From contig NZ_VTRS01000007.1 in the NCBI RefSeq assembly GCF_008641065.1, positions 62,001 through 126,000 of the forward strand: 64,000 bases of DNA, written 5' to 3'. Numbering within the stretch: the stretch's first letter is position 1; every line of letters begins with the position of its first letter. The position numbers and the translations under genes are program-made. A model generated the notes under the pieces. It was not told the origin of the DNA and did no database searches. It saw only the letters and a program-made list of their open reading frames with translations. The stretch comes from Rhabdaerophilum calidifontis. Its GTDB lineage: Bacteria > Pseudomonadota > Alphaproteobacteria > Rhizobiales > Beijerinckiaceae. Of this stretch, positions 31,483 through 49,419 are shown in pieces.

Positions 31483-32082
31483 TCAGATACCGGCCTTCTC
31501 GGCCAGTTCCGCCACGTAATCCCAGTTCACGAGATGGTCGACGAAAGCCTTGAGGTAATCGGGCCGGCGGTTGCGGTAATCGATGTAATAGGAATGCTCC
31601 CACACGTCGCAGCCGAGGATCGGCGCCGCGCCATGGACAAGCGGGCTCTCGCCGTTCGGGGTCTTCATGACGGTGATGCGGCCGTCCTTTACGGCGAGCC
31701 AGTTCCAGCCCGAGCCGAACTGCGTCACGCCGGCCTGGATGAAATCTTCCTTCATCTTCTCGACCGAGCCGAGATCCTCGATGATCTTCTTCTCAAGCCG
31801 GCCGGGGATCGCGCCGCCGCCATTGGGCTTCATCCAGCGCCAGAAATGGATGTGGTTGAAATGCTGGCCGGCATTGTTGAAGAGCCCGGCATTCTTGCCG
31901 AACGAACCCGTCACGATCTCCTCGAGGCTCTTACCCTCGAATTCCGAACCCTTGAGCAGGTTGTTGCCGTTGTTCACGTAAGCGAGGTGATGCTTATCGT
32001 GATGATATTCCAGCGTTTCCTTCGACATGTAGGGCTGGAGCGCGTCATGGGCGTAAGGCAGGTCCGGCAGGGTGAAGGACAT
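31483..32082 (-). CDS. sodB: Superoxide dismutase, Fe/Mn family (probably Fe)
   Basis: 199 residues from the ATG at 32082. Metal ligands: His in EYHHDKHH (residue ~27), His in GQHFNHIHFW (~75), Asp and His in DVWEHSYYIDYRN (~160). The QHFNHIHFWRWM segment is typical of alphaproteobacterial Fe-SODs. Dismutates superoxide in the cytoplasm. The 231-base divergent gap to the next gene is GC-rich next to sodB and AT-richer near 32240-32280, and holds no further ORF. Confidence 0.95.
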   Translation of the reverse strand: MSFTLPDLPYAHDALQPYMSKETLEYHHDKHHLAYVNNGNNLLKGSEFEGKSLEEIVTGSFGKNAGLFNNAGQHFNHIHFWRWMKPNGGGAIPGRLEKKIIEDLGSVEKMKEDFIQAGVTQFGSGWNWLAVKDGRITVMKTPNGESPLVHGAAPILGCDVWEHSYYIDYRNRRPDYLKAFVDHLVNWDYVAELAEKAGI

Positions 32083-36872: not shown

Positions 36873-36957
36873 GAACCCTAGAACGAGGATAAAATAGGAA
36901 TAAAAACTTACGACCTGATCTTTCTCCTTGAACTTCAACACGATGCAACCCTAGCGT
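36873..36957. promoter_or_regulatory. AT-rich upstream region of the HTH/DUF6456 operon with motifs shared with the GTA promoter
   Basis: Between the mucR terminator and the HTH gene lies a ~225-base non-coding stretch, AT-rich from about 36855 to 36960. It contains AACCCTAG at 36874-36881, ATAGGAAT at 36894-36901 and AACCCTAGCGT at 36947-36957. The exact 11-mer recurs (opposite strand) at 47498-47508 and the 8-mer at 47464-47471, both at the GTA operon promoter. TTGAAC at 36928-36933 could be a -35 element. Confidence 0.5.
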
Positions 36958-36990
36958 TGCGGCGGGGAGTTGAGGTGGCTGGAGCTGATC

Positions 36991-37443
36991 ATGGCGTCTT
37001 GCAGCGATCCGGGAGCGGATCTCCCTTGTCTTGTCCCATCCTTGTCTGAGGCGGCCGGAACGACGCGGCGGCGCGGGCGTCCGGCCTTGCCGCGGCCCTG
37101 CCGCGCGGGGATTGCGGCGCGGCGGGCGCTCGGCGAAAGGCTGAGCGAGGCCGCCGCGGCCGCCTGGCGGGCCGTTCCGCCGGCCGATCTGCGCCGGCCC
37201 ACGCGCAGCCGCGCCGAGATCGCGTTCGCGCGGCAGGCGGCGATCTATTTTGCGCATGTGATCTTCGGCGCGACGCTGACCCGCGCCGGCGGTATTTTCG
37301 GCCGCGACCGGACCACCGCCCGCCATGCCTGTTCGCGGATCGAGGATCAGCGCGACGATCATGCGATCGACCGGTCGATCGACCTGCTGGAACCGGCGAT
37401 CCGGTACTGGTTCGCGGCCTTCGCCGCGGAGGGCGATCGATGA
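36991..37443 (+). CDS. DnaA-domain-IV-like HTH protein, candidate GTA activator (GafY-like)
   Basis: 150 residues from the ATG at 36991 (GGAG six bases upstream). After a basic, Arg-rich N-terminal 60 residues comes a helix-turn-helix resembling DnaA domain IV: SRAEIAFARQAAIYF then FGRDRTTARHACSRIEDQ, matching the DnaA signature ARQxAMYL...RDHTTVxHA. No ATPase part is present. GTA activator GafA of Rhodobacter is described as having a DnaA-like HTH; in Caulobacter the function is split into GafY and GafZ. This gene overlaps a DUF6456 gene by ATGA, fitting a split pair. Assignment as GafY-like is inference. Confidence 0.72.
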   Translation: MASCSDPGADLPCLVPSLSEAAGTTRRRGRPALPRPCRAGIAARRALGERLSEAAAAAWRAVPPADLRRPTRSRAEIAFARQAAIYFAHVIFGATLTRAGGIFGRDRTTARHACSRIEDQRDDHAIDRSIDLLEPAIRYWFAAFAAEGDR

Positions 37444-38300
37444 GCGGCGCGCAGGGCCCCATTCCGGGCGCCGGTCCCGGTGCCGTCGCTGCCGATTACG
37501 CGCGCCACGCGGCCCGGCTTCTGGCCCGGCTCGCGGAACCCGGACTCCATGCCGAGCGCCGGGAGGATCGGGTGGTGCTGGTGCGCGGGCCCGGCGCCGT
37601 CGCTACGGCGACCGGGATCCCGGCCGGCGCGCTCGCCGATCTCCTGCATTGCGGCGCCGTGCGCTGCGAGACGCGGCAGGGGCGGGCGCGCTTCCTCATC
37701 ACCGAGGAGGGGCGGGCGCGGCTCCGGCGCGCTGCCGCGGAGGATGACGGTTTCGGCGCGCAGCACCGGCGGATCGAGACACGGGTCATCGCCGAGAACG
37801 GCGCGGGAGAGACCGTCCGGATCAATGTCCGGGAGGATGCGCTGAGCCTGATCCGGCATGGCCGGCTCGCGACGCGCTTCCTCGGCGCGGCCGAAATCGA
37901 GGCCGGTGAACGCCTGCGCCGCGATCTCGCCGCGGCGCAGATGATGCCGCGGGTCACCTCCGATTGGTCGCGGCTTGTGGTCGACGGCGTGGCGCCGGGG
38001 CGGGGGCTTTCGCTCTCCGAGGCGGCAATGGCGGCGCGCCAGCGGGTCTCGGCGGCGTTGGCGGCGGTTGATGCCGATCTGCGCGGCATCCTGATCGATG
38101 TCTGCGGCTTCGCGAAAGGGATCGAGACCCTGGAGCGCGAGCATGACGTGCCGGCGCGTTCGGGCAAGGTGGTGCTGGCCTTCGCCCTGCGGCAACTCGC
38201 CCGGCATTACGGGCTCAGAAATGCCGCCCAGGGCCCGCAAACTGCGCCGATCTGCGCCTGGGGAACCCCCGATTCCCGGCCCAGGCTCCGGGCAGGGTGA
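37440..38300 (+). CDS. DUF6456 protein, candidate GTA antiterminator/activator (GafZ-like)
   Basis: 286 residues. N-terminal half looks like a winged-helix module (residues ~15-100); residues ~130-265 are the DUF6456 domain, with INVREDALSLIRHGR and DVCGFAKGIETLERE. Translationally coupled to the HTH gene. In Caulobacter, GafZ is reported to act with NusA/G/E as an antiterminator on the GTA operon, and GafZ corresponds to the C-terminal part of GafA; I infer the same role here from the partner gene and from the GTA cluster 9 kb downstream. Without that context it would be a conserved unknown. Confidence 0.7.
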   Translation: MSGAQGPIPGAGPGAVAADYARHAARLLARLAEPGLHAERREDRVVLVRGPGAVATATGIPAGALADLLHCGAVRCETRQGRARFLITEEGRARLRRAAAEDDGFGAQHRRIETRVIAENGAGETVRINVREDALSLIRHGRLATRFLGAAEIEAGERLRRDLAAAQMMPRVTSDWSRLVVDGVAPGRGLSLSEAAMAARQRVSAALAAVDADLRGILIDVCGFAKGIETLEREHDVPARSGKVVLAFALRQLARHYGLRNAAQGPQTAPICAWGTPDSRPRLRAG

Positions 38301-38329
38301 GGTCGGAGGGAGCTGCGGCGCGTCCCCGT

Positions 38330-38752
38330 TCAGCCGGCCCGCGCCGCCGCCTCGGCCTTGATCCGCGCGACCATGGAGGCGAGGCCGTTCGAGCGTTGGG
38401 CGGTGAGATGGTCCTTGAGGCCGATTTCGGCGAACACCGCCTGCGCGTCCAGGGCGATGATCTCGTCGAACGGCCGATCGTCGAACATCGCCAGCACCAG
38501 GGCGACGAGACCCTTGACGATCATCGCGTCGCTGTCGCCCGCGATCCGCAGCGTGCTGCCGTCCGGCCCCGGCCGCATCAGCAGCCAGACCTGGCTCGCG
38601 CAGCCCTGGACCCGGTTCGCCTCGGTATAGGCATCGGCCGGAAGCGGCGCAAGCCGGCGGCCGAGATCGATGAGATAGGCGTAGCGATCCTCCCAATCGT
38701 CGAGAAAGGCGAGATCGTCGCGGATGGCTTGCAGGGCGGCGTTGGCCGGCAT
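38330..38752 (-). CDS. sufE: SufE family cysteine desulfurase activator
   Basis: 140 residues from the ATG at 38752 (GAGGA upstream). The sulfur-accepting Cys lies in RVQGCASQVWL near residue 51, and GDSDAMIVKGLVALVL is typical. Takes persulfide sulfur from SufS for Fe-S cluster assembly. Converges with the DUF6456 gene, 29 bases apart. Confidence 0.93.
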   Translation of the reverse strand: MPANAALQAIRDDLAFLDDWEDRYAYLIDLGRRLAPLPADAYTEANRVQGCASQVWLLMRPGPDGSTLRIAGDSDAMIVKGLVALVLAMFDDRPFDEIIALDAQAVFAEIGLKDHLTAQRSNGLASMVARIKAEAAARAG

Positions 38753-38851
38753 GGGAAGGCTCCTCGGGCCGGCATATCGCGCCGGCATTCGGGGGGCTTG
38801 GGGCGGCGCGCGGCGGGCGTCAAGGGGCTCGCCCCGAGATCGGCGCGGCGT

Positions 38852-39142
38852 TCAGGCGCGGGGATGGGCCGGCCGCCGCGGCGGCAGCGGATAAGCGCCG
38901 GCCGGCAGGGCGAGGAGCGGTTCCGGCTCGGCCGTCTTCGGCGTCGCCGCGACGCGGGCGAGGCCGGCCGCCTGCCCGATGGTCTCGATGCAGCGCGCTG
39001 CCTGGTCCGCGCAGAGCCGGATCACGGCCTCCGGCGCGCGCTCGCGCAGGGTGCCGGCAAGTTCGACGCCGTCCTGCCGCGTGCGATCCGCGCCGTGAAC
39101 GAGCGTGAGGGCGACGATCGCCGCCGAGATGCGCCAGAGCAT
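38852..39142 (-). CDS. Small secreted protein (DUF5330-like position)
   Basis: 96 residues, with an AAGGGA ribosome-binding site six bases upstream. Short signal-like N-terminus (MLWRISAAIVALTLVHG) and a mature part with two Cys (RLCADQAARCIE) and a Pro-rich tail. In related genomes a DUF5330 gene occupies this place beside sufE; similarity is suggestive only. The 307-base gap to its right holds the hairpin, the palindrome and the CtrA-like site listed separately. Confidence 0.6.
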   Translation of the reverse strand: MLWRISAAIVALTLVHGADRTRQDGVELAGTLRERAPEAVIRLCADQAARCIETIGQAAGLARVAATPKTAEPEPLLALPAGAYPLPPRRPAHPRA

Positions 39143-39200
39143 GTCCGTCCCTTTCCGTCCCGGTCTCGGCCTAGCATGGCGGGGCTTGCGGCGGGCTGAA

Positions 39201-39228
39201 GCGATTGCACCGCATTTTATTCAATCGC
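39201..39228. repeat. Inverted repeat in the 39143-39449 gap
   Basis: GCGATTG (39201-39207) and CAATCGC (39222-39228) with a 14-base AT-rich loop. A second element in the same gap is the 12-base perfect palindrome GGTTTTAAAACC at 39310-39321. Either could be an operator; no gene-length ORF is credible in the gap. Confidence 0.35.
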
Positions 39229-39372
39229 CCGGCAGAGGCGGGGGACGCCCTGGAATCGCGGCGGGATCGCGATCCGCTCGAAGGGTATGGAGAGGGGTTG
39301 TTCACCATAGGTTTTAAAACCGCGCTTGATCGCGCCGGAACCGCCGCCCGGCGGGCTGGCGGGCGGCGGCTC

Positions 39373-39388
39373 TTAGGCTCCGTTTAAG
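39373..39388 (+). promoter_or_regulatory. CtrA-like site upstream of the kinase gene
   Basis: TTAG-N7-TTAAG, close to the CtrA consensus TTAA-N7-TTAAC, about 60 bases before the histidine kinase start. A sister site with TTAG-N7-TTAAC is at 42238-42253. Two deviations from consensus make this tentative. Confidence 0.3.
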
Positions 39389-39449
39389 GACCCGCACCGC
39401 AGGGTCTCGTGCGGGGTTGGGGCGAGACAGAACGGGAAGCCGCGTATCC

Positions 39450-41051
39450 ATGGCGATTGATCCGAGGCAGGATCGGCGGGCGCATCCGGGCGCCGACGAG
39501 GCGGAGGAGGCCGTGTGCCGCGCGCGCCTTGTCGCGCGCGGCGCCGGTGTGCTCGCGGCCGCTGCGGCGCTCCTTCAGCCTTTCTTCACGCATGCCGCCG
39601 AAAGCGCCGCTCTGGCCGCGCCGGCGGCCGGGCTTCTCGTCTGGAATCTGCTCGGGCTGGTGCTGCATGTGCGTTTCGGGCCGCGCGGCGCCCCGGCGAT
39701 GCTTGCCGCCGCCGGTTTCGCGCCGCTGATCGCCGCCGCCGCGGCGCCCTGGCCGGTGACCGCCGCGATCGGGCTTGTCGCGCTGAGCGATGCGGCGATC
39801 TCGGCCGAGGCACGCCCCGGCCCGCGCGCCCTGCTGCTCGGCCTTGCCGCGTTGGCCGTGGCGCTGACGGCCGCGATCCTTGTTCCCGCCGCCCTGCCGG
39901 TCCTGTTCGCGGCGCTGCTGCCGGTGCCGGTCGAGGCGCTCCTGCGCCGGCACCTTGGCCGTGCGGACCCCACGGCGCTCGGCGCCGAGATCCTGCGCCT
40001 GCGGGCCCTGCTCGCCGCGCAGGCGCGGGGGAGCGGCCGCCGCGTGGTGGTGACGGATATCGTCGGCATGATCGACCCCGTCCTGTCCGCGGCGGAGAGG
40101 GACGCGGCGGAAGCGGCATCGCGCGGAGCCGCGGAGGCGGAATCGCTTGTCGCCGCCACCCTGATCGCCGATCGCCCGATGCTGCTCGAGGCGCTGTCGC
40201 GCGCGGTGCACGGCGGCGTCGCGAGCCGCGATCTGGCGCTGCGCATGCTGGAGGCGCCGGCCGGGGCTGGTTACCCCGCGCCGCCGCGCTTCTCTGTCCG
40301 GCGGCTCGGCGTCGAGCCGCTGCCCGGTCTTGCCGGGCGCGCGATCGTGGTGATCGAGCGCGATGGGGAGGCGCCGGCGGCCGATGCCGCGCCGGGCCCG
40401 GTGGCGACGCTCGACCCGGTGCCGCTCCGGCGGGCACTGCATGATTGCGTCGCCCCCTTCAATGCCGGCCTCGGATTTCTCGACATGATCGCCGATCCGC
40501 AGCTCGCGCCGCGGGACATCGCGACCTATCGCGATTTCGCGGCCGAAGCGCATCGCGCCATCGCGGAGGCGCATCGCAACGCCGTCCTGCTCGGCCGTCT
40601 GCTCGATCTGGCACGCCATCCGCGCGCGGCGCGGGAGACGATCACACCCGGCCGGCTCGTCGGCGACGCGATCCGCGCGCTGCATCTGCGCCGGGCGGTC
40701 GAGATCGGTCAGATCCGCCTGGGCTCCGCCGAGGCGCTGCCGCCGGCCGCGCTCGAACCCGCCACCGCGCGGCTCGCGGTCGAGGCGCTGATGCGCCACG
40801 CTGCCGGGGCTGCACGCGCCGAGATCGTCTTCGCACGCGAGGGAGAGGATCTGGTCCTGACCTGCTACCGCGACGAAGGCGCAGACCCGGCCGCGCCGGA
40901 CGGGCTCCAGGCCGAGATCGAGGCGGCGGCGGCGGCCGGCGGTGCGCTGGTCTTCGAGGACGGCGAAGCGGATGCGCGGCGGCTGCGCCTTCGCGGCGCC
41001 TATGCGGCGGAATGCCGGGCGGATGCGCCGGCGGTCCGGCTCGCGTCGTGA
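39450..41051 (+). CDS. Membrane histidine kinase-like protein with divergent ATPase domain
   Basis: 533 residues from the ATG at 39450. Residues ~25-170 are hydrophobic with about five or six helices. Residues ~320-395 resemble a HisKA dimerisation domain: LHDCVAPFNAGLGFLDMI matches the H-box pattern H-(E/D)-x3-P-x-N, with His331 as phosphoacceptor, and ends in LLGRLLDLARH. The following ATPase-like part lacks recognisable N, G1 and G2 boxes, so it may be a pseudokinase or phosphotransferase in the manner of DivL or ChpT. Shares a transcript with the peptidoglycan-binding protein gene 13 bases downstream. Confidence 0.6.
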   Translation: MAIDPRQDRRAHPGADEAEEAVCRARLVARGAGVLAAAAALLQPFFTHAAESAALAAPAAGLLVWNLLGLVLHVRFGPRGAPAMLAAAGFAPLIAAAAAPWPVTAAIGLVALSDAAISAEARPGPRALLLGLAALAVALTAAILVPAALPVLFAALLPVPVEALLRRHLGRADPTALGAEILRLRALLAAQARGSGRRVVVTDIVGMIDPVLSAAERDAAEAASRGAAEAESLVAATLIADRPMLLEALSRAVHGGVASRDLALRMLEAPAGAGYPAPPRFSVRRLGVEPLPGLAGRAIVVIERDGEAPAADAAPGPVATLDPVPLRRALHDCVAPFNAGLGFLDMIADPQLAPRDIATYRDFAAEAHRAIAEAHRNAVLLGRLLDLARHPRAARETITPGRLVGDAIRALHLRRAVEIGQIRLGSAEALPPAALEPATARLAVEALMRHAAGAARAEIVFAREGEDLVLTCYRDEGADPAAPDGLQAEIEAAAAAGGALVFEDGEADARRLRLRGAYAAECRADAPAVRLAS

Positions 41052-41064
41052 GGGGGAGGAGAAC

Positions 41065-41868
41065 ATGGTGGAACGCGAAGCCCCGATGAAGCCGCGCCCC
41101 GCCGGTGCGCCGCATCCGCGCCGGCCGCGGCTTGGCCGCGTGCTCACGCGCCAGCGCGCCATCCTGGCCGGGCTCGTGCTGTTTGCCGGCATCGTCGCGG
41201 TCAATGCGGTGGTGCTCCAGAACGACCGGCATCCCGCGCCGCTCTTCCGCACGCTGGCGCGCGGCGCCGACGGCGCGCCGCTGCCGCCGCTGCGGCCGGA
41301 TGGCGGTTCCACCATCCGGCAGGCGGCCTTCACGCCGGTGCCGCTGGGCAGCGGCCGTGCCGAGCGGATCGAGAAGCCCGCCGATCGCGGGCAGGGCGAG
41401 AAGCCGAAATCCGCCGGCGAGGGCGGCGACGCGCTGGTGGCTGAGATCCAGCGCGAACTCGCGCGGCGCGGGCTCTACAAGGGCGAGGCCGACGGCCGGA
41501 CCGGGCCGATGACCGTGCAGGCGATCCGCGATTTCCAGTTCGGCCAGCGCCTGCCGGTGGACGGCCGGGCGAGCGAGGAATTGCTGCGCGAACTGAGCGG
41601 CAGCCGGGCGACGATGAAGGACGAACTGCTCGACCTGCTGCGCAAATCGGTGGAGCCCGAGAAGCCGAACCGCACCGTTCTCGATGTCCAGCGCGCGCTG
41701 AACAAGGCCGGCTACGGGCCGCTGACCGAGGACGGCCAGCTTGGCCCCTCGACGCGGGCGGCGATCGCGAAATTCGAGACCGACCGCAAGCTGCCGCCGA
41801 AGGGCGAGCCGAAGGGACCGGTGCTTCAGGCGCTGGCGGCGGCGACCGGCATCGCGATCGCGCGCTGA
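41065..41868 (+). CDS. Membrane-anchored protein with two peptidoglycan-binding domains
   Basis: 267 residues from the ATG at 41065, after GGGGGAGGA. One membrane helix (residues ~32-52), a Pro/Gly-rich linker, then two PG_binding_1 repeats: VAEIQRELARRGLYKGEADG (residues ~132-175) and VLDVQRALNKAGYGPLTEDG (~210-255), each with GxxT(R/V)xAIxxF. Probably sits in the periplasm on the cell wall. Its stop overlaps the DUF1491 start. Confidence 0.85.
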   Translation: MVEREAPMKPRPAGAPHPRRPRLGRVLTRQRAILAGLVLFAGIVAVNAVVLQNDRHPAPLFRTLARGADGAPLPPLRPDGGSTIRQAAFTPVPLGSGRAERIEKPADRGQGEKPKSAGEGGDALVAEIQRELARRGLYKGEADGRTGPMTVQAIRDFQFGQRLPVDGRASEELLRELSGSRATMKDELLDLLRKSVEPEKPNRTVLDVQRALNKAGYGPLTEDGQLGPSTRAAIAKFETDRKLPPKGEPKGPVLQALAAATGIAIAR

Positions 41869-42215
41869 TGGCGCGGCTGACGAGCGATTTCTTCGTCTCC
41901 GCCCATCTGCGGCGCTGCGCCGCCGAGGGGGTTTTTGCCGCGCTGCGCCGCCGCGGCGGCGCGGAGGCCGGCGCGATTCTTGTCGTGGTCGACCGCCTCG
42001 ACGGCACGGGGACGCTCTACGGCCCCGCGCCGCAAAGCAGTTACGGCGCGCAGGCGCCGGGGCGCGCCTTCTCCCGCCTTCACAAGGACGAGGTGCTCCC
42101 GCGCGCCGAGATCGAAGCGCGTCTCGTGCGCGAGATCGATTTCGACCCCGATTGCTGGATCATCGAGATCGAGGATCGGGGCGGGCGGCATTTCCTCGAT
42201 CTTTCGCCGGAATGA
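41868..42215 (+). CDS. DUF1491 family protein
   Basis: 115 residues. Begins LTSDFFVSAHLRRCAAEG and ends DFDPDCWIIEIEDRGGRHFL, the two conserved blocks of DUF1491, an alphaproteobacterial family of unknown function. One-base overlap with the previous gene implies coupling. Confidence 0.88.
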   Translation: MARLTSDFFVSAHLRRCAAEGVFAALRRRGGAEAGAILVVVDRLDGTGTLYGPAPQSSYGAQAPGRAFSRLHKDEVLPRAEIEARLVREIDFDPDCWIIEIEDRGGRHFLDLSPE

Positions 42216-42237
42216 CGGCTCCGTTTCGGGACGCCCG

Positions 42238-42276
42238 TTAGGCCTCCGTTAACGATTTCCGCCGAGTTTGACGCTA
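42238..42276 (+). promoter_or_regulatory. CtrA-like site and possible promoter core
   Basis: TTAG-N7-TTAAC at 42238-42253, one base off the CtrA consensus TTAA-N7-TTAAC. Right after it, TTGACGCTAGATG (42267-42279) carries GCTAGAT, like the alphaproteobacterial -10 core GCTANAWC, and shares TGACGCTAG with the GTA promoter. About 60-95 bases before the small gene at 42335. Confidence 0.35.
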
Positions 42277-42334
42277 GATGCCCGATTCGGAACGCCCGGC
42301 AGGCGTTGCCGTCGCGGCATCGAAGGAACTGGCC

Positions 42335-42526
42335 ATGGGCGAAATCATCCGCTTGCGGCCTCATCTGGAGGCCAGACAGAAAAACGCCGCGCCCCAAGGC
42401 GCGGTGGGCGGGCGCACCGCGACGATCCTCCTTTTCCTTGGTGTTCGCTACGAGCGCCATGACGACCCGATTCTCGCGCCCACGACCCGCGATGCGCCGC
42501 GGGGCCGGCGGCGCAAGCGTGCGTAG
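42335..42526 (+). CDS. Small conserved alphaproteobacterial protein
   Basis: 63 residues from the ATG at 42335, with GAAGGAA seven bases upstream. Begins MGEIIRLRPHLEARQ and carries ATILLFLGVRYERH, a motif seen in short proteins across Rhizobiales; the tail is very basic (RGRRRKRA). Function unknown. Longer frames upstream look non-conserved. Confidence 0.65.
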   Translation: MGEIIRLRPHLEARQKNAAPQGAVGGRTATILLFLGVRYERHDDPILAPTTRDAPRGRRRKRA

Positions 42527-42597
42527 CCTCGCGTTCCGCGTATCCGCGTTCCCGATTCCGTTCCGTTTCCGCATCCGGCGTCTCGGAGGCCCTCGCG

Positions 42598-43467
42598 ATG
42601 GCGCGCCATCCTCTCCCGTCGAACCCGTCCCTCCGCGCTGCCTGCGGTCTCGCCACGGCGCTGCTGCTCGGCGGCTGCATCTCGACGACCGGTGATTTCG
42701 GTCGCCCGCAGCCCGGTTTCACCAACGACGTGCTGCTGCCCTTCACCGGCATGCTCGCCGCCAAGGCGCGGGGCGAACCCTCCTCCAGCTACGCGCTGAC
42801 CGAGGACGAGAAGGTGCTGCGCAACCGCGCCTGGAACTTCCTGATGCCCGAGAACGACGCGCCGCGCGGCACATGGATGGAGCACAACCTCGCCTTCCAC
42901 CGCATCCTGCCGCCGCGCTCCCAGGACGTGACGCTCTATCACCGCACAATCATGGGCGGGCCGCAATTCGGCGGCGGGCGCGGCCTCGGCGATTCGCCCA
43001 ATCTGCGTGCGATCACCAGCCCCGGCGGCAATTTCAGATCGCTGACCTCGCGCTACAACCGGGTGCGCGATTCGATCGCGGCGGATCACGCGCTGATCCC
43101 CTATTTCAAGCTGGTCGCGAGCCAGGTGCGGCAGGCGGACCATATCCGTCTCCAGAGCCTCGGCCATGTCCGCTATCTGACCGAGGAGCACCGCGCCGAG
43201 GCGATCGCGCGCGTATGCGAGAACGCGATCATCATCGCGCGGGTCAACTGGGCCTTCTTCGACAAGGCCGAGCAATACCGCTATTCGCTCGAGCATCTGA
43301 TCGTCGAGGGCCCGGAGCGCGAGGCGATTCCGGCCGAGCGGACGCTGATGGCGTTCGAGCGCGACATCGCCGGCTTCCGCAAGGATGCGGTGATTCCGCC
43401 GCAATGCCTGCCGGAGGCCGAGATGCCGCCGGTGATCACGCCGCGCCCGCTCGTGCGGAAATATTGA
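42598..43467 (+). CDS. Conserved lipoprotein of unknown function
   Basis: 289 residues, with GGAGG eight bases before the ATG. Lipoprotein signal: hydrophobic GLATALLLGGC with lipobox Cys at residue 27. The remainder is hydrophilic and helical, with an N-terminal FLPFTG-like stretch (LLPFTGMLAAKARGEPSS) typical of alphaproteobacterial conserved lipoproteins. No enzymatic motif. Probably anchored in the inner or outer membrane facing the periplasm. Confidence 0.75.
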   Translation: MARHPLPSNPSLRAACGLATALLLGGCISTTGDFGRPQPGFTNDVLLPFTGMLAAKARGEPSSSYALTEDEKVLRNRAWNFLMPENDAPRGTWMEHNLAFHRILPPRSQDVTLYHRTIMGGPQFGGGRGLGDSPNLRAITSPGGNFRSLTSRYNRVRDSIAADHALIPYFKLVASQVRQADHIRLQSLGHVRYLTEEHRAEAIARVCENAIIIARVNWAFFDKAEQYRYSLEHLIVEGPEREAIPAERTLMAFERDIAGFRKDAVIPPQCLPEAEMPPVITPRPLVRKY

Positions 43468-43494
43468 CCCTGCCCTGAACCATCGCCTGCCGGT

Positions 43495-44043
43495 TCAGCC
43501 CGGCAGCGCCTCGCTGCCGCATTGCGCGCGGCGGAGCACGGCCTCCGCGCGCTCCCGCGCGCTGGGACGGTCGACGATCACCTTGAGGATCGCGAGCCCG
43601 GCAGGGCGCGGCGCGACGATGCGGATTTCCTCCACCGCCTGATCCTCCTCGTCGAGGCGGGTGATGCGGTCGAGCTGGGCCTCGGTCGCGAGCACGACAT
43701 CGAGCGCCCCGCCGGTTGCCGCGCGGTCCGAAACGCTGGCGAAAATGCCGCGGCGCGGCAGCGCGAAGGTGATCGACAGGAAGGTCTCGGACAGCGGCAC
43801 GCGGATGCGCACCGGCCCCTCGGCGAGATCGTAGCGGCAGACCGCGATCGCCATGGCCGGATCGGCATAGGGCCAGGACATGAGCGCCCGGCGATCGACC
43901 AGCGCCATCGCGTTGACCGGCGCCTCCTCGTCGAGGCGCGAGAAGATGTCCGAGCGCGCGAAATGCGGGAGGGCGAAGATCGCCGCGATATGCGTGATTC
44001 CGGCGACGATCATGAACAGCGCGGCGTGGAGGAGGATCGTCAT
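43495..44043 (-). CDS. DUF1254-like membrane-anchored protein
   Basis: 182 residues from the ATG at 44043, overlapping the stop of the DUF1214 gene (ATGA). One N-terminal membrane helix (LLHAALFMIVAGITHIAAIF), then DPAMAIAVCRYDLAEGPVRI, resembling the partner proteins of DUF1214 genes in Rhizobiales. Function unknown; the pair is commonly found together. Confidence 0.7.
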   Translation of the reverse strand: MTILLHAALFMIVAGITHIAAIFALPHFARSDIFSRLDEEAPVNAMALVDRRALMSWPYADPAMAIAVCRYDLAEGPVRIRVPLSETFLSITFALPRRGIFASVSDRAATGGALDVVLATEAQLDRITRLDEEDQAVEEIRIVAPRPAGLAILKVIVDRPSARERAEAVLRRAQCGSEALPG

Positions 44044-44621
44044 GGCGCGCACCCGATCCGTTCGAGGCGCGGCAGCATGCGCGGATCGAGTTCGGTCGCA
44101 CTGGCGCTGAGCGGGGTCTCGTAGAAGCGGAAAACGATGGTGAAGCGCCGCTGCGCGCGGGAGGAGGGCAGCCAGTTGCCCGGCAGCGGATCCGGCCCGA
44201 TCTCGATCGCGAACCGCCCGTCCTGGTCGCGGATGATCTCGGCCGAGGTGAAGCCGTGCCGCTCGGCGAGATTGGCGACGAGGCGACCGGCGGAATCGGT
44301 GAGCGTCACCGTCCAGAATCGCGCGGGCGGAACGGGCGAGGAGAGCCGGTAATGGCAGGCGGTATCGAGCGGCTGCCCGCCGGCATCGCGGCTGGCACGC
44401 AGCGCATAGCCCTCGCCGGAGGCCAGCGGCAGCTCGCCTTCCGAGAACAGACGCGCGCGGGCATAGGGATCGATCTCGGCCGAGCCGACCCGCGGAGAGA
44501 ATTCCCAAGGCCCGACATGGCGGGTGATCAGCGCCGCGCCGGGGCCGATCGCGCTGATCGTCAGCGCGATGCCGGCGGCGAACCCGGCGATGATGGTCAG
44601 CAGGACGAGAAGCGCGCGCAT
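44040..44621 (-). CDS. DUF1214 domain protein
   Basis: 193 residues with an N-terminal signal anchor (LLVLLTIIAGFAAGIALTIS). DUF1214 block visible: FWTVTLTDSAGRLVANL, then FRFYETPLSASATELDPRMLPRL. Role unknown. Twelve bases separate it from the PBP gene upstream, so it probably belongs to the same transcript. Confidence 0.82.
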   Translation of the reverse strand: MRALLVLLTIIAGFAAGIALTISAIGPGAALITRHVGPWEFSPRVGSAEIDPYARARLFSEGELPLASGEGYALRASRDAGGQPLDTACHYRLSSPVPPARFWTVTLTDSAGRLVANLAERHGFTSAEIIRDQDGRFAIEIGPDPLPGNWLPSSRAQRRFTIVFRFYETPLSASATELDPRMLPRLERIGCAP

Positions 44622-44632
44622 GGCCGGAACGT

Positions 44633-46846
44633 TCAGGAGCGTCGCGCGGGCTCTGTCGGCGCGGCGGAAAGCGGGCCCTCCGCCGGCTCTTCCGCGAGAA
44701 GCTCGATCTCCTTGAGGATCGCCCGGCCGCGATTGGTGAGGCGATAGGCGCGGCGGGCCTGGATCGTCGTCGCCTCGACGGCGCCGGCGATCTCGGCGAG
44801 CTTGGGGTCGCGCACCGGCCTGTCGGTCTCCGGCAGGCCGATCAGCGGCTTCAGTTCGACATCGAGATGGGCGAAGGCCATCACCTGCTGGAAGGTCATC
44901 GCTGGCAGCGAGCCGCCGGTCATGTTGTTGGTGGGGGAATAATCGTCGTTTCCGAACCAGATTGCGGTGGTGAAATTGCCCGAATAGCCGACATACCAGG
45001 CGTTACGGTATTCGTCCGTCGTGCCGGTCTTGCCGGCATGCGGCACGCCCGGCAGCGCCGCGCGGCGGCCGGTTCCCTCGGTCGGCACCTTGGAGAGCAT
45101 GAAGTTGAGGTCTCGCGCCGCCTGCTCCGGCATCACCTGGGGATGGCGGTCCGGCTCATCCTCCACGCGGTAGAGCACGGCCCCGGCGGCGCTGAGGATC
45201 TCCCGCGCCGCATAGGCTTTCGCCCGCCTGCCGCCATTGGCGAAGGCGTTGAACCCGTTGGCCATGTCCACCACCGTCAGTTCCGAGGCGCCGATCGGCA
45301 GCGGCACCACGTCGCGCAGATTGGTCGTGAAGCCGAGCGCGCGGGTCAGGGCGATGACCTTCTTGCGGCCGCGGGCATGGGCCTTGTCGCTGGTCGCATC
45401 GCGGCCGTTCTGGCCGAGCAGTCCGGTCAGCTGCACGGGAATGGTGTTGATCGATTTCGCAAGCGCCACCGTCGCCGGCACCGAGCCCGCGAAGGAGCGG
45501 CCGTAATTCGCCGGGCACCAGGTGAAACCGGCATAGACGCAGGTCGGGCGGTCCGTCACCACGGTATCGGGGCGGATCAGCCCCTGCGCCAGCGCCGCGG
45601 CGTAGATATAGGGCTTGAACGAGGAGCCCGGCGGGCGCATCGCGATGGTCGCGCGGTTGAACTGGCTCTGGCCGTAATCCCGCCCGCCGACCATGGCCTT
45701 GAGGCCGCCATCGAGATCGAGCGTGACGATCGCGTATTGGCGCACGCCGTAAGTCGCGCCGTGCTGGCGCAGGATCGCCTCGGCGGCGCGCTCGGCATGC
45801 CGCTGGAGGCCGCGATCAATCGGTGTGCGCACCGTGAGGATGCGCTCATGGCCGAGCCGCCCGGCCAGGGCGAGCTGGCGCACCTCCTCGAAGGCGAAAT
45901 CGAGCGCGTAATCGGCGATGTTCTCGTTCTGGCGCTCGACCGGCGTCGCGGGGTTGCGCAAGGCGGTCGCGATCTGGCCCTGGGTGAGGAACCCGGCCTC
46001 GACCATGTTCGAGAGCACGTCGGCCGCGCGGGCGCGGGCGGCGGGGAGGTTGATGGTCGGGGAATATTTCGACGGCGCCTTGAACAGCCCGGCGATCATC
46101 GCCGCCTCCGCGAGCGTGATGTCGCGGACATCCTTGCCGAAATAATGCTCCGCGGCCGATTGCACCCCGAACACTCCGTTCCCGAGATAGGCGCGGTCGA
46201 GATAGAGCTTGAGGATTTCGGGCTTGGTGAGCCGCGCTTCGAGCCAGAAGGCGAGGAACGCCTCCTTGATCTTGCGTTCGAGCGAGCGCTCGTTGGAGAG
46301 GAACAGGTTCTTCGCGAGCTGCTGGGTGATGGTCGAGCCGCCCTGCACCACGCCGTTGGCGCGAGCATTGGCCATCAGCGCCCGGGAGAGGCCGCCGATA
46401 TCGATGCCGAAATGGTCATGGAAGCGGCGATCCTCGGTTGCGAGCGCCGCCTTGACGAGATGCTCCGGCAATTGTTCGAGCGGTACCGATTCCGAATGCA
46501 GGATGCCGCGCCGCCCGATCAACTCGCCGTTCTGATCGAGAAAGGTGACGGCGAGATCCTGCCGCTTCAGCCAATTGTCCTCGTCCACGGCGCGGAAGGC
46601 GGGCTTGGCCAAAGCCGTCATCAGCACGCCGCCGATTGCGGCATAGGTCAGCGCCTCGCAGGCGAAGGCCACGAGCGCGCGGCCGGCGGGGGAGGGTTCG
46701 AGCGCGTCGGAGGCATGGCGTATCCGCCACAGCCCCTCCTTGATGCGCTCGCCGAGCGCGTGCAGCGAATGTTCGAGCCAGGCGTCGAGATCGCGCGCCC
46801 GGCGGGCGATCTTCTCGGCAAGACTGATCTTCCGGAACTCGGCCAT
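44633..46846 (-). CDS. Class A penicillin-binding protein (PBP1 family)
   Basis: 737 residues from the ATG at 46846. N-terminal cytoplasmic tail, membrane helix near residues 60-80, glycosyltransferase domain with [16 protein letters not shown] and [15 protein letters not shown], then transpeptidase domain with SxxK in [12 protein letters not shown], SxN in AKSINTIP and KTG in [15 protein letters not shown]. Polymerises and crosslinks peptidoglycan; reads as PBP1C/2D-like by length. A longer frame reaches 47068 but would overlap the divergent YcgN gene. Confidence 0.93.
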
Positions 46847-46961
46847 GCTATCAACCGCCTGCGACGCAAAGGATGTTTCTACTTCACCGCCTCCGCTCTG
46901 GCCAGTGTTGGCGCGGCATCGGGGGCTTGACCTCGGTGATAGGCCGGTGAATGGCAGATGG

Positions 46962-47447
46962 ATGCCGGCCGATGCCCCGCCCTTCTGGAAAACCAAGCCC
47001 CTCGCGGCCATGAATGCGGCGGAATGGGAGAGCCTGTGCGATGGCTGCGGCCGCTGCTGCCTCATCAAGATGGAGGACGAGGACAGCGGGCAGTTCTATT
47101 TCACGGATGTCGCCTGCCGGTTGTTCGATGCCGGCACCTGCCGCTGCCGCGATTACGAGAACCGCGACGCATTGGTGCCCGATTGCGTGCGCCTCACGCC
47201 CGAGAATGCCGGCGCGCTCGGCTGGATGCCGCCGAGCTGCGCCTATCGGCTGCTGGCCGAGGGGCGGGATCTTCCGGCCTGGCATCCGCTTGTCAGCGGT
47301 CGGGCGGAGAGCGTCGAGGAAGCCGGCGCGAGCGTCCGGGGGCGCGTTTCCGGGCTGGAGGATGCCTTTACCCTGCCCGAACTCGTGGCGCGCATCCGGC
47401 AATGGCCCGGGCGCTGGCCGCGGCGGCGGAGAAATCCCCGCGATTAA
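46962..47447 (+). CDS. YcgN family cysteine-cluster protein (UPF0260)
   Basis: 161 residues from the ATG at 46962 (a GTG five codons earlier is possible). Conserved [10 protein letters not shown] and [14 protein letters not shown], then [17 protein letters not shown] and [10 protein letters not shown]: eight Cys in the YkgJ/YcgN pattern that probably holds a metal or Fe-S centre. Function unknown. Divergent from the PBP gene. Confidence 0.9.
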
Positions 47448-47454
47448 GGTAAAT

Positions 47455-47471
47455 ATTCCTAGTATAGGAAT
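47455..47471. promoter_or_regulatory. Palindrome upstream of the GTA promoter
   Basis: ATTCCTA-GTA-TAGGAAT, perfect 7-base arms, in an AT-rich pocket that starts directly after the YcgN gene. Part of it (ATAGGAAT) recurs at 36894-36901 before the candidate regulator operon. Candidate activator-binding site just upstream of -35. Confidence 0.5.
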
Positions 47472-47478
47472 TATATCG

Positions 47479-47507
47479 TTGACAGCGTCACGGCCTGACG
47501 CTAGGGT
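47479..47507 (+). promoter_or_regulatory. Predicted GTA operon promoter with internal inverted-repeat operator
   Basis: TTGACAG at 47479-47485 and GCTAGGGT at 47500-47507 fit the alphaproteobacterial pattern TTGACGS-N10-14-GCTANAWC with a 14-base spacer. Between them lies a perfect inverted repeat GCGTCA-CGGCC-TGACGC (47485-47501), so a bound dimer would block RNA polymerase. The sequence 47498-47508 matches, on the other strand, the 11-mer at 36947-36957. Confidence 0.6.
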
Positions 47508-47599
47508 TCGGACACGCTCCCGAATTGCGGGCGGATGGCGCTCTCCGCCGCCGGAACCTTCCTCATGATCATTCTCGCGACGTCCGAGGGGGCGTCCGT

Positions 47600-47683
47600 C
47601 CCGGTTTGCACCGGGCTCATCCATATCGTCAGGGCTCGCGGCGACGCGGGCCCTTTCCTTTGCGGCGCCCCGCAGCCGGGGCG
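47600..47683 (+). promoter_or_regulatory. Structured GTA leader with terminator-like hairpin
   Basis: Leader of about 200 bases before the first GTA gene. Hairpin 1: CCCGG-TTTGCA-CCGGG (47600-47615). Hairpin 2: 10-bp stem 47631-47640 with 47645-47654 (one G-T pair), GCGA tetraloop, followed by TTCCTTT, resembling an intrinsic terminator. Hairpin 3: CGCCCCG-cagc-CGGGGCG (47666-47683). No convincing short gene is present, although an ATG-initiated frame enters from 47535 in phase with the small terminase. Confidence 0.5.
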
Positions 47684-47708
47684 TCTGCCGGGCAGGGACA
47701 ACGAGACC

Positions 47709-48140
47709 ATGACCAGCATGAGACCCGAAGAGGCCGGGCACGCGGCACCGCCCCCCATCCGCCGGGCGCGCCCGGCGGGCCGCCGCCGCCTCGTGGCGCG
47801 GCTGTGGCGGACGGCCGAGCGGCAGGTGGCCGAGATCGAGACGCGGCTTCAGGCGGCGGAGACCGATCCCGCCCATCTCGAGCGCGATGCCAAGACGCTG
47901 GCGATCCTCGCGCGGACGGTCCGCGACCTCGTCGCGCTCGAGGTCGAGGCGGCGGAGGCCGCTGCGCCGGCGCCGCGACGCAGCCGCCTGATCGCCGATT
48001 CGCGAATGCCCGCCCGCGGCGAGGCCGGAGACAGCACGGATGACGCAGGCGAGGCCCGAAACCTCGAAGATTTCCGCGCCGAGCTTGCGCGACGCCTTGA
48101 TCAGCTGCGTCGAGAGCGGCCAGGGGAGGCACCTGCTTGA
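47709..48140 (+). CDS. GTA gp1: small terminase subunit
   Basis: 143 residues from the ATG at 47709; the frame extends upstream to 47535 but without conserved sequence. Helical core RLWRTAERQVAEIETRLQ and RDAKTLAILARTVRDLVALE is typical of the first gene of RcGTA-like clusters, shown in Rhodobacter to be a small terminase. Binds DNA loosely and recruits the large terminase so that random host DNA is packaged. Lies on the promoter-proximal end of the cluster; its last 101 bases also encode the start of the large terminase. Confidence 0.78.
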   Translation: MTSMRPEEAGHAAPPPIRRARPAGRRRLVARLWRTAERQVAEIETRLQAAETDPAHLERDAKTLAILARTVRDLVALEVEAAEAAAPAPRRSRLIADSRMPARGEAGDSTDDAGEARNLEDFRAELARRLDQLRRERPGEAPA

Positions 48141-49419
48141 AGGGCTCCGCGGCGGCGACCTCGTCTGGTTCCTGACGGACTGGCTGCTGTTCGCGCGGCC
48201 TGACCAATTGCCGCCGGAAACGGCGCGGGGCGGCGGCGACTGGAGCACCTGGCTGGTGCTCGGCGGCCGCGGCGCCGGAAAAACCCGCACCGGCGCCGAA
48301 TGGGTCCGGGGGCTGGCGCTCGGACGCCCGCCCTTCGCGGCGCGCCCCGTCGGCCGGATCGCGATCATCGGCGAGACGATGCAGGATCTGCGCGAGGTGA
48401 TGGTCGAGGGCGTCTCCGGCCTCCGCGCCATCCACCCGCCGGCCGAGCGGCCGGTCTGGCATGCCTCGCGGCGGCGACTCGAATGGCCCAACGGCGCGGT
48501 GGCGCAGGGGTTTTCGGCGGAGGATCCGGAATCGTTGCGCGGCCCGCAATTCGAGGCCGCCTGGTGCGACGAACTCGCGAAATGGCCGCATGCTGCGGAG
48601 GCCTTCGACATGCTGCAATTCGGGCTGCGGCTCGGCGCGCGACCGCGGCAGGTGATCACCACCACGCCGCGGCCGACACCCTTGCTCAAGCGCCTCGCGG
48701 CCGACCCCCGCACGGCCCTGAGCCATGCGCCGACCCGGGCCAATGCCGCCAATCTCGCGCCGAATTTCCTGGCTGAGATCGTCGGCCGCTATGCCGGAAC
48801 GGCGCTCGGGCGCCAGGAACTCGACGGCCTGTTCATCGAGGAGCGGCCGGACGCGCTGTTCCGGCGCGAGGCGATCGAGGCCGGCCGCTGCGCATCGCCG
48901 CCGGCGCTGGCGCGGATCGTCGTCGCGGTCGATCCGCCGGCGGGCGGGCGGCGCGGCGGACGCTGCGGCATCATCGTCGCGGGACGGGACGCGGCGGGGC
49001 TCGTCTATGTCGTCGAGGACGCCTCGCTCGAATCGGCGCCGCCGGAACGCTGGGCCGCGCGCGCCATCGAGGCCTATCGCCGCCACGAGGCCGATGCGCT
49101 CGTCGCCGAGATCAACCAGGGCGGGGCGATGGTCGCGAGCGTGCTCGGCGCGGTGGATGCCGCCGTGCCGGTGACGCCGGTGCGCGCGCGGCGCGGCAAG
49201 CATGTCCGCGCCGAGCCGGTGGCGGCGCTCTACGCCCAGGGCCGGGTGCGCCATGCCGGATGCTTCCCGGCGCTCGAGGACGAGATGGTCGCCTTCGGCC
49301 CCGACGGGCTGGCGGAGGGACGGTCTCCGGACCGGCTCGACGCGCTCGTCTGGGCGGTGACGCATCTCGCGCTCGACGGCGAGGCCGGCGCGCCGCGGGT
49401 GCGGCGGCTGATCGGTTGA
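48040..49419 (+). CDS. GTA gp2: large terminase subunit
   Basis: 459 residues. Walker A LGGRGAGKTRTG near residue 75, Walker B-like FEAAWCDELAKW near 180, motif III TTTPRPTPLLK near 207; C-terminal RNase H-like nuclease domain with IVVAVDPPAGG (Asp) near 290 and a late SPDRLDALVWA (Asp). Packages about a headful of host DNA into the particle. The ATG at 48040 gives a 101-base overlap with gp1 in another frame. Confidence 0.94.
   Translation: MTQARPETSKISAPSLRDALISCVESGQGRHLLEGLRGGDLVWFLTDWLLFARPDQLPPETARGGGDWSTWLVLGGRGAGKTRTGAEWVRGLALGRPPFAARPVGRIAIIGETMQDLREVMVEGVSGLRAIHPPAERPVWHASRRRLEWPNGAVAQGFSAEDPESLRGPQFEAAWCDELAKWPHAAEAFDMLQFGLRLGARPRQVITTTPRPTPLLKRLAADPRTALSHAPTRANAANLAPNFLAEIVGRYAGTALGRQELDGLFIEERPDALFRREAIEAGRCASPPALARIVVAVDPPAGGRRGGRCGIIVAGRDAAGLVYVVEDASLESAPPERWAARAIEAYRRHEADALVAEINQGGAMVASVLGAVDAAVPVTPVRARRGKHVRAEPVAALYAQGRVRHAGCFPALEDEMVAFGPDGLAEGRSPDRLDALVWAVTHLALDGEAGAPRVRRLIG

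Follow-up and report, generated by a model that had tools for sequence, protein, structure and literature searches.

The gene transfer agent (GTA) of Caulobacter crescentus is governed by the RogA–GafYZ–GTA circuit (PMC9632790, PMC11150451); this and the other published systems are described here as far as excerpts of the cited papers cover them. In this circuit, RogA acts on a GGAA-N4-TTCC repeat at gafYZ (PMC9632790). The Caulobacter GTA promoter needs GafY and IHF, and a GafZ-binding element (ZBE) lies between its −35 and −10 (PMC11150451). In Rhodobacter capsulatus, DnaA-type and GafZ-type domains control the homologous RcGTA (PMC9638019, PMC6363796), and RogA has 0 occurrences in PMC9638019. 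The locus considered here lies in a 64-kb stretch of the 3.09-Mb genome of Rhabdaerophilum calidifontis (G000:C17:62001-126000, hereafter the window). It is like Caulobacter in having a gafYZ operon and a GTA cluster, and like Rhodobacter in the types of regulatory domain; however, GafA of Rhodobacter is a single protein, acting via RNA polymerase omega and dependent on CtrA, unlike the GafY/GafZ pair of the window. By comparison, the circuit is likely a variant of the known RogA–GafYZ–GTA kind with a common regulator. One repressor, RogA-like and not the neighboring helix-turn-helix (HTH) protein, probably binds both the gafYZ and the GTA upstream regions. Binding, repression, and GafZ action are deduced throughout from sequence comparison.

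TAGGA-N6-TCCTA, a palindromic operator, is the candidate shared element. The window was scored with a matrix derived from 31 sites, all from other genera and none of them from rogA; its top three scores are 20.6, 17.6, and 17.2 bits, with the fourth at 7.4 bits. The best of these is operator 1 of the GTA promoter (AAGGTAAATATTCCTA, 47446–47461), the second is the operator of gafYZ (TAGGAATAAAAACTTA, 36895–36910), and the third is operator 2 of the GTA promoter (TAGGAATTATATCGTT, 47465–47480), all three listed without strand. Operator 2 overlaps the −35 and occupies the position of a block that is aligned order-wide ahead of the −35. TAGGA-N6-TCCTA shares its palindrome and spacing with GGAA-N4-TTCC of Caulobacter. 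The initial annotation had reported ATAGGAAT at 36894 and 47464 and AACCCTAG at 36874, and these positions are correct. ATAGGAAT corresponds to the left half of the operator and begins 1 base ahead of two of the three sites, being contained in the gafYZ operator and, for the most part, in operator 2. A further copy of ATAGGAAT, unlisted in that annotation, occurs at 31588 inside coding sequence and is not among the top matrix scores. Elsewhere in the genome, a pattern drawn from the three window sites has no match; only this absence of further matches is informative, the pattern having been derived from those sites.

The same operator recurs in relatives. The comparison comprises 49 GTA regions minus 5 in which the core promoter was not found or was out of reach (G015, G041, G047, G053, G058), and 49 gaf loci, 36 of them with GafY, from which G038 was excluded because its start is unclear. 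TAGGAA stands at a constant distance before TTGACA in most of the 49 aligned GTA upstream regions. TAGGA-N6-TCCTA with up to two mismatches is present in the GTA regions of 14/15 same-genus and 19/29 other genomes, and in the gafY regions of 7/17 same-genus and 12/18 others, with a shuffle average of 0.6–1.5. At 10 bits or more, sites occur in 13 of the 15 GTA regions and 9 of the 17 gafYZ regions within the genus, and in 22/35 gafYZ regions altogether; a palindrome of the operator type is present in many gafYZ regions. Among the named loci, 78 of 80 reach a sufficient core score and 38 carry the operator (up to two mismatches) at the exact place, and in some others it is displaced by one base. 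In other orders, 16 of the 17 genomes with a match contributed regions before terL, and no site above 7.6 bits was found in the 1300 bp before terL of these 16 genomes. Therefore, the GTA-promoter operator is confined to Hyphomicrobiales in this sample.

The candidate binder is encoded elsewhere in the genome, at G000:C1:2880-3497. Its product of 206 amino acids has the architecture of RogA (approximately 213 amino acids), that is, an N-terminal HTH and a C-terminal S24-like part, with Peptidase_S24 above cut-off and HTH_26 and HTH_3 below theirs. A rogA-like gene is matched in 50 of 61 relatives, and the region upstream of it was read for 30 of these 50 (those with a locus) and, separately, for 14 of 15 genomes of other orders (G320 being split). 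Sites of at least 10 bits lie within 150 bp upstream of the rogA-like gene in 9 of 13 Hyphomicrobiales outside the genus and, in other orders, upstream of it in 11 of 14 genomes. The presence of the operator also tracks that of the gene. A GTA-promoter site of at least 10 bits occurs in 33/40 genomes with a rogA-like gene and in 0/4 without (p = 0.0024), and at 8 bits in 33/40 and 1/4 (p = 0.03). These Fisher tests ignore kinship, and among the four genomes without the gene, two are only 84% and 88% complete. At gafYZ, a site is found in 22/32 genomes with the gene and 0/3 without; in other orders, sites of at least 8.8 bits are found in 11/15 and 1/9, one of the 11 (G063) lying just inside the assumed start codon. 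We consider it quite likely, from these comparisons, that this one LexA/CI-type, RogA-like repressor targets the gafYZ promoter as well as the GTA promoter.

Besides the neglect of kinship and the incomplete genomes in these tests, several observations weigh against this assignment. The GTA site is missing in 7 of the 40 genomes with a rogA-like gene, a Microvirga-like pattern among them; six Microvirga loci (L150, L161, L168, L176, L192, L194) keep TTGACA and the spacer and lack the operator at its usual place. The gafYZ site is absent in 8 of 17 same-genus genomes, and the right half of the palindrome is degenerate in both the gafYZ site and GTA site 2 of the window. The strict pattern TAGGAWNNNNNTCCT is not over-represented: hand-summed totals are 117 matches in 61 genomes (0–13 per genome) and, for the reversed control, approximately 374; at least 17 of its matches lie at the GTA promoter (9), at gafYZ (5), or at the rogA-like gene (3). 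The counts for gafYZ and GTA outside the genus are partly circular. The excerpt of PMC9632790 places Caulobacter RogA at gafYZ and CCNA_02002 only, and not at the GTA promoter.

The binder could also be another XRE/CI-type repressor acting on the shared operator in place of the RogA-like protein, which appears rather unlikely. In Caulobacter, gafYZ is also bound by CdxB, a repressor of the XRE type, and additional XRE proteins are able to repress it (PMC13236601)—again a point against the RogA-like protein—and the genome of R. calidifontis encodes another XRE + S24 protein (L119). In addition, the rogA-like gene of the window's genus has mostly lost its own site, which persists in 1/17 genomes at 10 bits and scores 3.5 bits in R. 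calidifontis itself; this, too, speaks against the assignment. Such a substitute does not account for the two independent samples, the 13 Hyphomicrobiales and the 14 genomes of other orders, in most of which the operator precedes the rogA-like gene, nor for the joint occurrence of operator and gene.

The initial annotation had suggested the adjacent HTH protein, GafY, as an example of such a binder. Self-control by this protein through the palindrome is very unlikely because the GTA operator is retained in 10 of the 12 genomes whose GTA promoter is readable and in which no GafY match was found at E up to 1e-17. In Caulobacter, GafY contacts domains 3–4 of sigma-70 (PMC11150451), which would suit a palindrome abutting the −35, and the palindrome overlaps TTATCCT in some genomes of other orders (L243, L244, L251); however, Caulobacter GafY binds far upstream of the −35 (PMC11150451), and the palindrome is also found upstream of rogA-like genes. 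The genomes that have gafZ and no GafY, adjacent or elsewhere at the same threshold, are G017, G018, G020, G024, G026, G028, G030–G032, G034–G036, and G054.

The RogA-like protein resembles LexA/CI repressors in its N-terminal HTH, its C-terminal S24 fold, its palindromic operator, and the own-gene site in many relatives. The window's genus differs from them in this site and in the absence of the serine and lysine motifs. The serine motif G[DE]SM is missing in 17/17 same-genus proteins and kept in 12/13 other Hyphomicrobiales and in 14/14 genomes of other orders; the lysine motif is likewise lost in 17/17 and kept in the 12/13 and 14/14 (compared were G000:C1:2880-3497, L201–L230, and L280–L293). 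Self-cleavage has possibly been lost in the window's genus. RogA of Caulobacter is stated to be without key catalytic residues.

The initial annotation had based a shared binder on the 11-mer AACCCTAGCGT. Its copies do lie at 36947–36957 (plus strand) and 47498–47508 (minus strand), in AT-rich islands as described: both upstream stretches have approximately 48% GC, compared with 70% in the window. The claim that the 11-mer occurs in just these two regions holds for the window, which has no other match with up to one mismatch, and fails for the genome. There, three exact copies exist, the third (G000:C11:540571-540581) lying 28 bp ahead of the start codon (ATG) of a gene for a small secreted-looking protein that is unrelated; with up to one mismatch, 6 copies stand against 27 for the reversed-pattern control. 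A common 11-mer arises in 0.25% of 20,000 dinucleotide-preserving shuffles of both regions, a figure that applies to one chosen pair selected after reading 64 kb. The conservation in relatives that the initial annotation had required is absent at both places: with 0–1 mismatch, AACCCTAGCGT is present upstream of gafY in 1/17 same-genus genomes and 0/18 other Hyphomicrobiales, and the corresponding counts for the GTA operon are 1/15 and 0/29, the single genome in each case being that of R. calidifontis. On this ground, the 11-mer is probably not the shared binding site. Its palindromic reading (AACSCTAGSGTT), likewise not conserved, was dropped.

Both copies overlie proposed −10 boxes, TAGCGT (36952–36957) and TAGGGT (47502–47507), which in the direction of transcription lie 18 bp after TTGAAC and 17 bp after TTGACA, respectively. 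Relatives in the alignment retain −35/−10 pairs at these places with differing letters. The opposite orientation of the copies follows from CTAG, present in both boxes and its own reverse complement. Most likely, the 11-mer is a coincidental match of two ordinary −10 regions beside operators. That it is itself a lineage-specific regulator site would fit its rarity in shuffles and the location of two of its three genomic copies at these promoters, and is nevertheless extremely improbable given its absence from both places in every relative examined, its overlap with two −10 boxes, and the third copy before an unrelated gene. Of the initial proposal, a single protein for both regions probably survives; it would act neither through the 11-mer nor, probably, be the adjacent HTH protein.

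Both core promoters rest on alignment since a strict promoter scan found neither. The proposed gafYZ promoter, TTGAAC-N18-TAGCGT (36928–36957, plus strand), comes from the same-genus alignment, and the 11-mer ends in its −10; the proposed GTA promoter, TTGACA-N17-TAGGGT (47479–47507, plus strand), comes from alignments of relatives, and the minus-strand 11-mer covers its −10. The circuit shares with Caulobacter the S24-type repressor, the GGAA-N4-TTCC-like gafYZ site, and an inverted repeat between the −35 and −10 of the GTA promoter. Here, however, the operator also lies at the GTA promoter, on a perfect −35 (TTGACA), whereas the −35 in Caulobacter is poor (AATCAT). A near-consensus −35 freed the Caulobacter GTA promoter from its dependence on GafYZ (PMC11150451). 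The inverted repeat of the window, GCGTCA-N5-TGACGC (47485–47501, without strand), is placed like the Caulobacter element and is a candidate GafZ-binding element. The conservation of the spacer in 98 promoters is inflated by selection; a repeat of the alignment used 69 promoters for which the operator half and the −35 had been the sole criteria. These 69 yield the spacer consensus gCGt.aCGcTg.tcgGg, followed by TAg of the −10 and CA.GcTCcagAa.Tg.

The conserved early transcribed region (47514–47530, plus strand) appears in the alignment of the 98 promoters and in that of the 69 chosen without it, the start of transcription being placed at approximately 47514. Conservation of the initial transcribed bases, CAYGCTC.AGAATTGYG, is strong and exceeds what a core promoter requires. 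This region may act as a pausing or loading element for GafZ. The hairpin search further detected a terminator-like hairpin in the leader before the first GTA gene (47631–47654, plus strand). Such leader hairpins were found in 36 of 98 promoters, compared with 10 on the opposite strand and 2–9 in five shufflings; the majority of the 98 leaders showed no hairpin by this search. In Caulobacter, by contrast, the terminator follows the first gene (PMC11150451). Late-operon antitermination of the lambda Q type is alike in its in-promoter loading element, the conserved early transcribed region, and a terminator before the first gene, although GafZ and lambda Q have no sequence or structural similarity (PMC11150451); for the window, antitermination is a prediction from the sequence. 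In the proposed mechanism, the RogA-like repressor at the operators would block RNA polymerase at the gafYZ and GTA promoters. Upon its release, GafY and GafZ would be made, and GafZ would load at the inverted repeat between the −35 and −10 of the GTA promoter and enable the polymerase to pass the terminator in the leader and enter the GTA operon.

A second motif of the gafYZ upstream region is TTATCCTCG (TTATCCYCG; 36884–36892, minus strand), the candidate GafY box. Exact TTATCCYCG is found upstream of gafY in 4/17 same-genus genomes, 8/18 other Hyphomicrobiales, and 7/24 genomes of other orders, compared with 0.1–0.2 in shuffles, and in 0/29 rogA-like control regions. Within 1100 bp upstream of a gafZ match, it occurs in 10/19 genomes with GafY and 0/13 without (p = 0.0016). 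The DnaA box is TTATCCACA, from which TTATCCYCG differs in the last three bases. In the proteins compared, the recognition helix reads GRDRTT in GafY and GRDHTT in DnaA, with two GafY loci and one DnaA locus giving no or another motif. Outside the genus, GTA promoters show no enrichment of TTATCCYCG (1/29 exact). The GafY-binding element (YBE) mapped in Caulobacter includes ACTATG (PMC11150451), and TTATCCYCG does not resemble these quoted bases. TTATCCYCG possibly serves GafY as an autoregulatory site and not as an element that the two regions share. It could also be the site of a divergent XRE gene, which stands beside gafY in four genomes of other orders. At L233, L238, L239, and L242, a divergent gene of approximately 195–201 amino acids with an XRE-type HTH start adjoins gafY on its upstream side, as judged by translation.

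Neither of two further motifs was fully retained. CGGGGAW as a common element is found in 16/17 gafY and 10/15 GTA regions of the genus; outside it, 3/29 GTA regions compare with 2.5 in shuffles, and it is only partly kept. WATCCCCGY as a regulon marker has 272 matches in the genome of R. calidifontis and is too common, many of the matches lying in one array with a 61-bp period. Among the matches listed, many copies of TATCCCCGC with 61-bp spacing occupy G000:C12:260872-264481, which looks like a CRISPR array.

The gene content agrees with the described systems. The small protein encoded by gafY (36991–37443, plus strand; start from translation) has a DnaA-type HTH with the fold of DnaA domain IV (Bac_DnaA_C, E = 1e-10) and directly precedes gafZ (37440–38300, plus strand), which encodes the paired DUF6456 protein (PF20057, E = 1.5e-36). 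The two genes are flanked by mucR and sufE, a neighborhood described for the split GafY/GafZ pair of Hyphomicrobiales (PMC9638019). The GTA cluster begins at 47.7 kb and features terminase, portal, protease, HK97 capsid, gp10-type tail protein, and GTA_TIM—the gene set and order of the RcGTA type. Its first gene, in the small-terminase position (47709–48140, plus strand), starts at the in-frame ATG 47709 of the open reading frame 47535–48140 and has no Pfam match. It is followed by the large terminase (48040–49419, plus strand; Terminase_6N and 6C).

A wider reading is put forward tentatively, as a possibility suggested by the comparison. The GTA promoter of Hyphomicrobiales would be a strong one under two successive controls, first a RogA-type repressor acting directly on it and then antitermination. 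The operator would lie on a near-perfect −35 and a GafZ-loading repeat in the spacer, followed by a conserved early transcribed region and, in many cases, a terminator in the leader. GafY would read a re-coded DnaA box, TTATCCYCG, fitting the His-to-Arg exchange in its recognition helix. DNA damage could release gafYZ and the GTA together outside the window's genus, because the RogA-like proteins there mostly keep the serine and lysine motifs of the LexA/CI type; the window's genus would have lost this trigger. Neither a RogA site at a GTA promoter nor a GafY consensus was found in the open-access GTA literature, as far as the excerpts reach (PMC9632790, PMC13236601, PMC6363796, PMC9638019, PMC11150451). 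According to these, no GafY motif could be predicted (PMC9632790) and one GafY element was mapped by truncation (PMC11150451); a candidate motif at the level of bases is offered here. The description of the promoter allows GTA control to be compared across an order. If the RogA counterpart also occupies the GTA promoter in Hyphomicrobiales, GTA control there would differ in logic from that of Caulobacter and consist of a strong promoter held shut and not of a weak one switched on.

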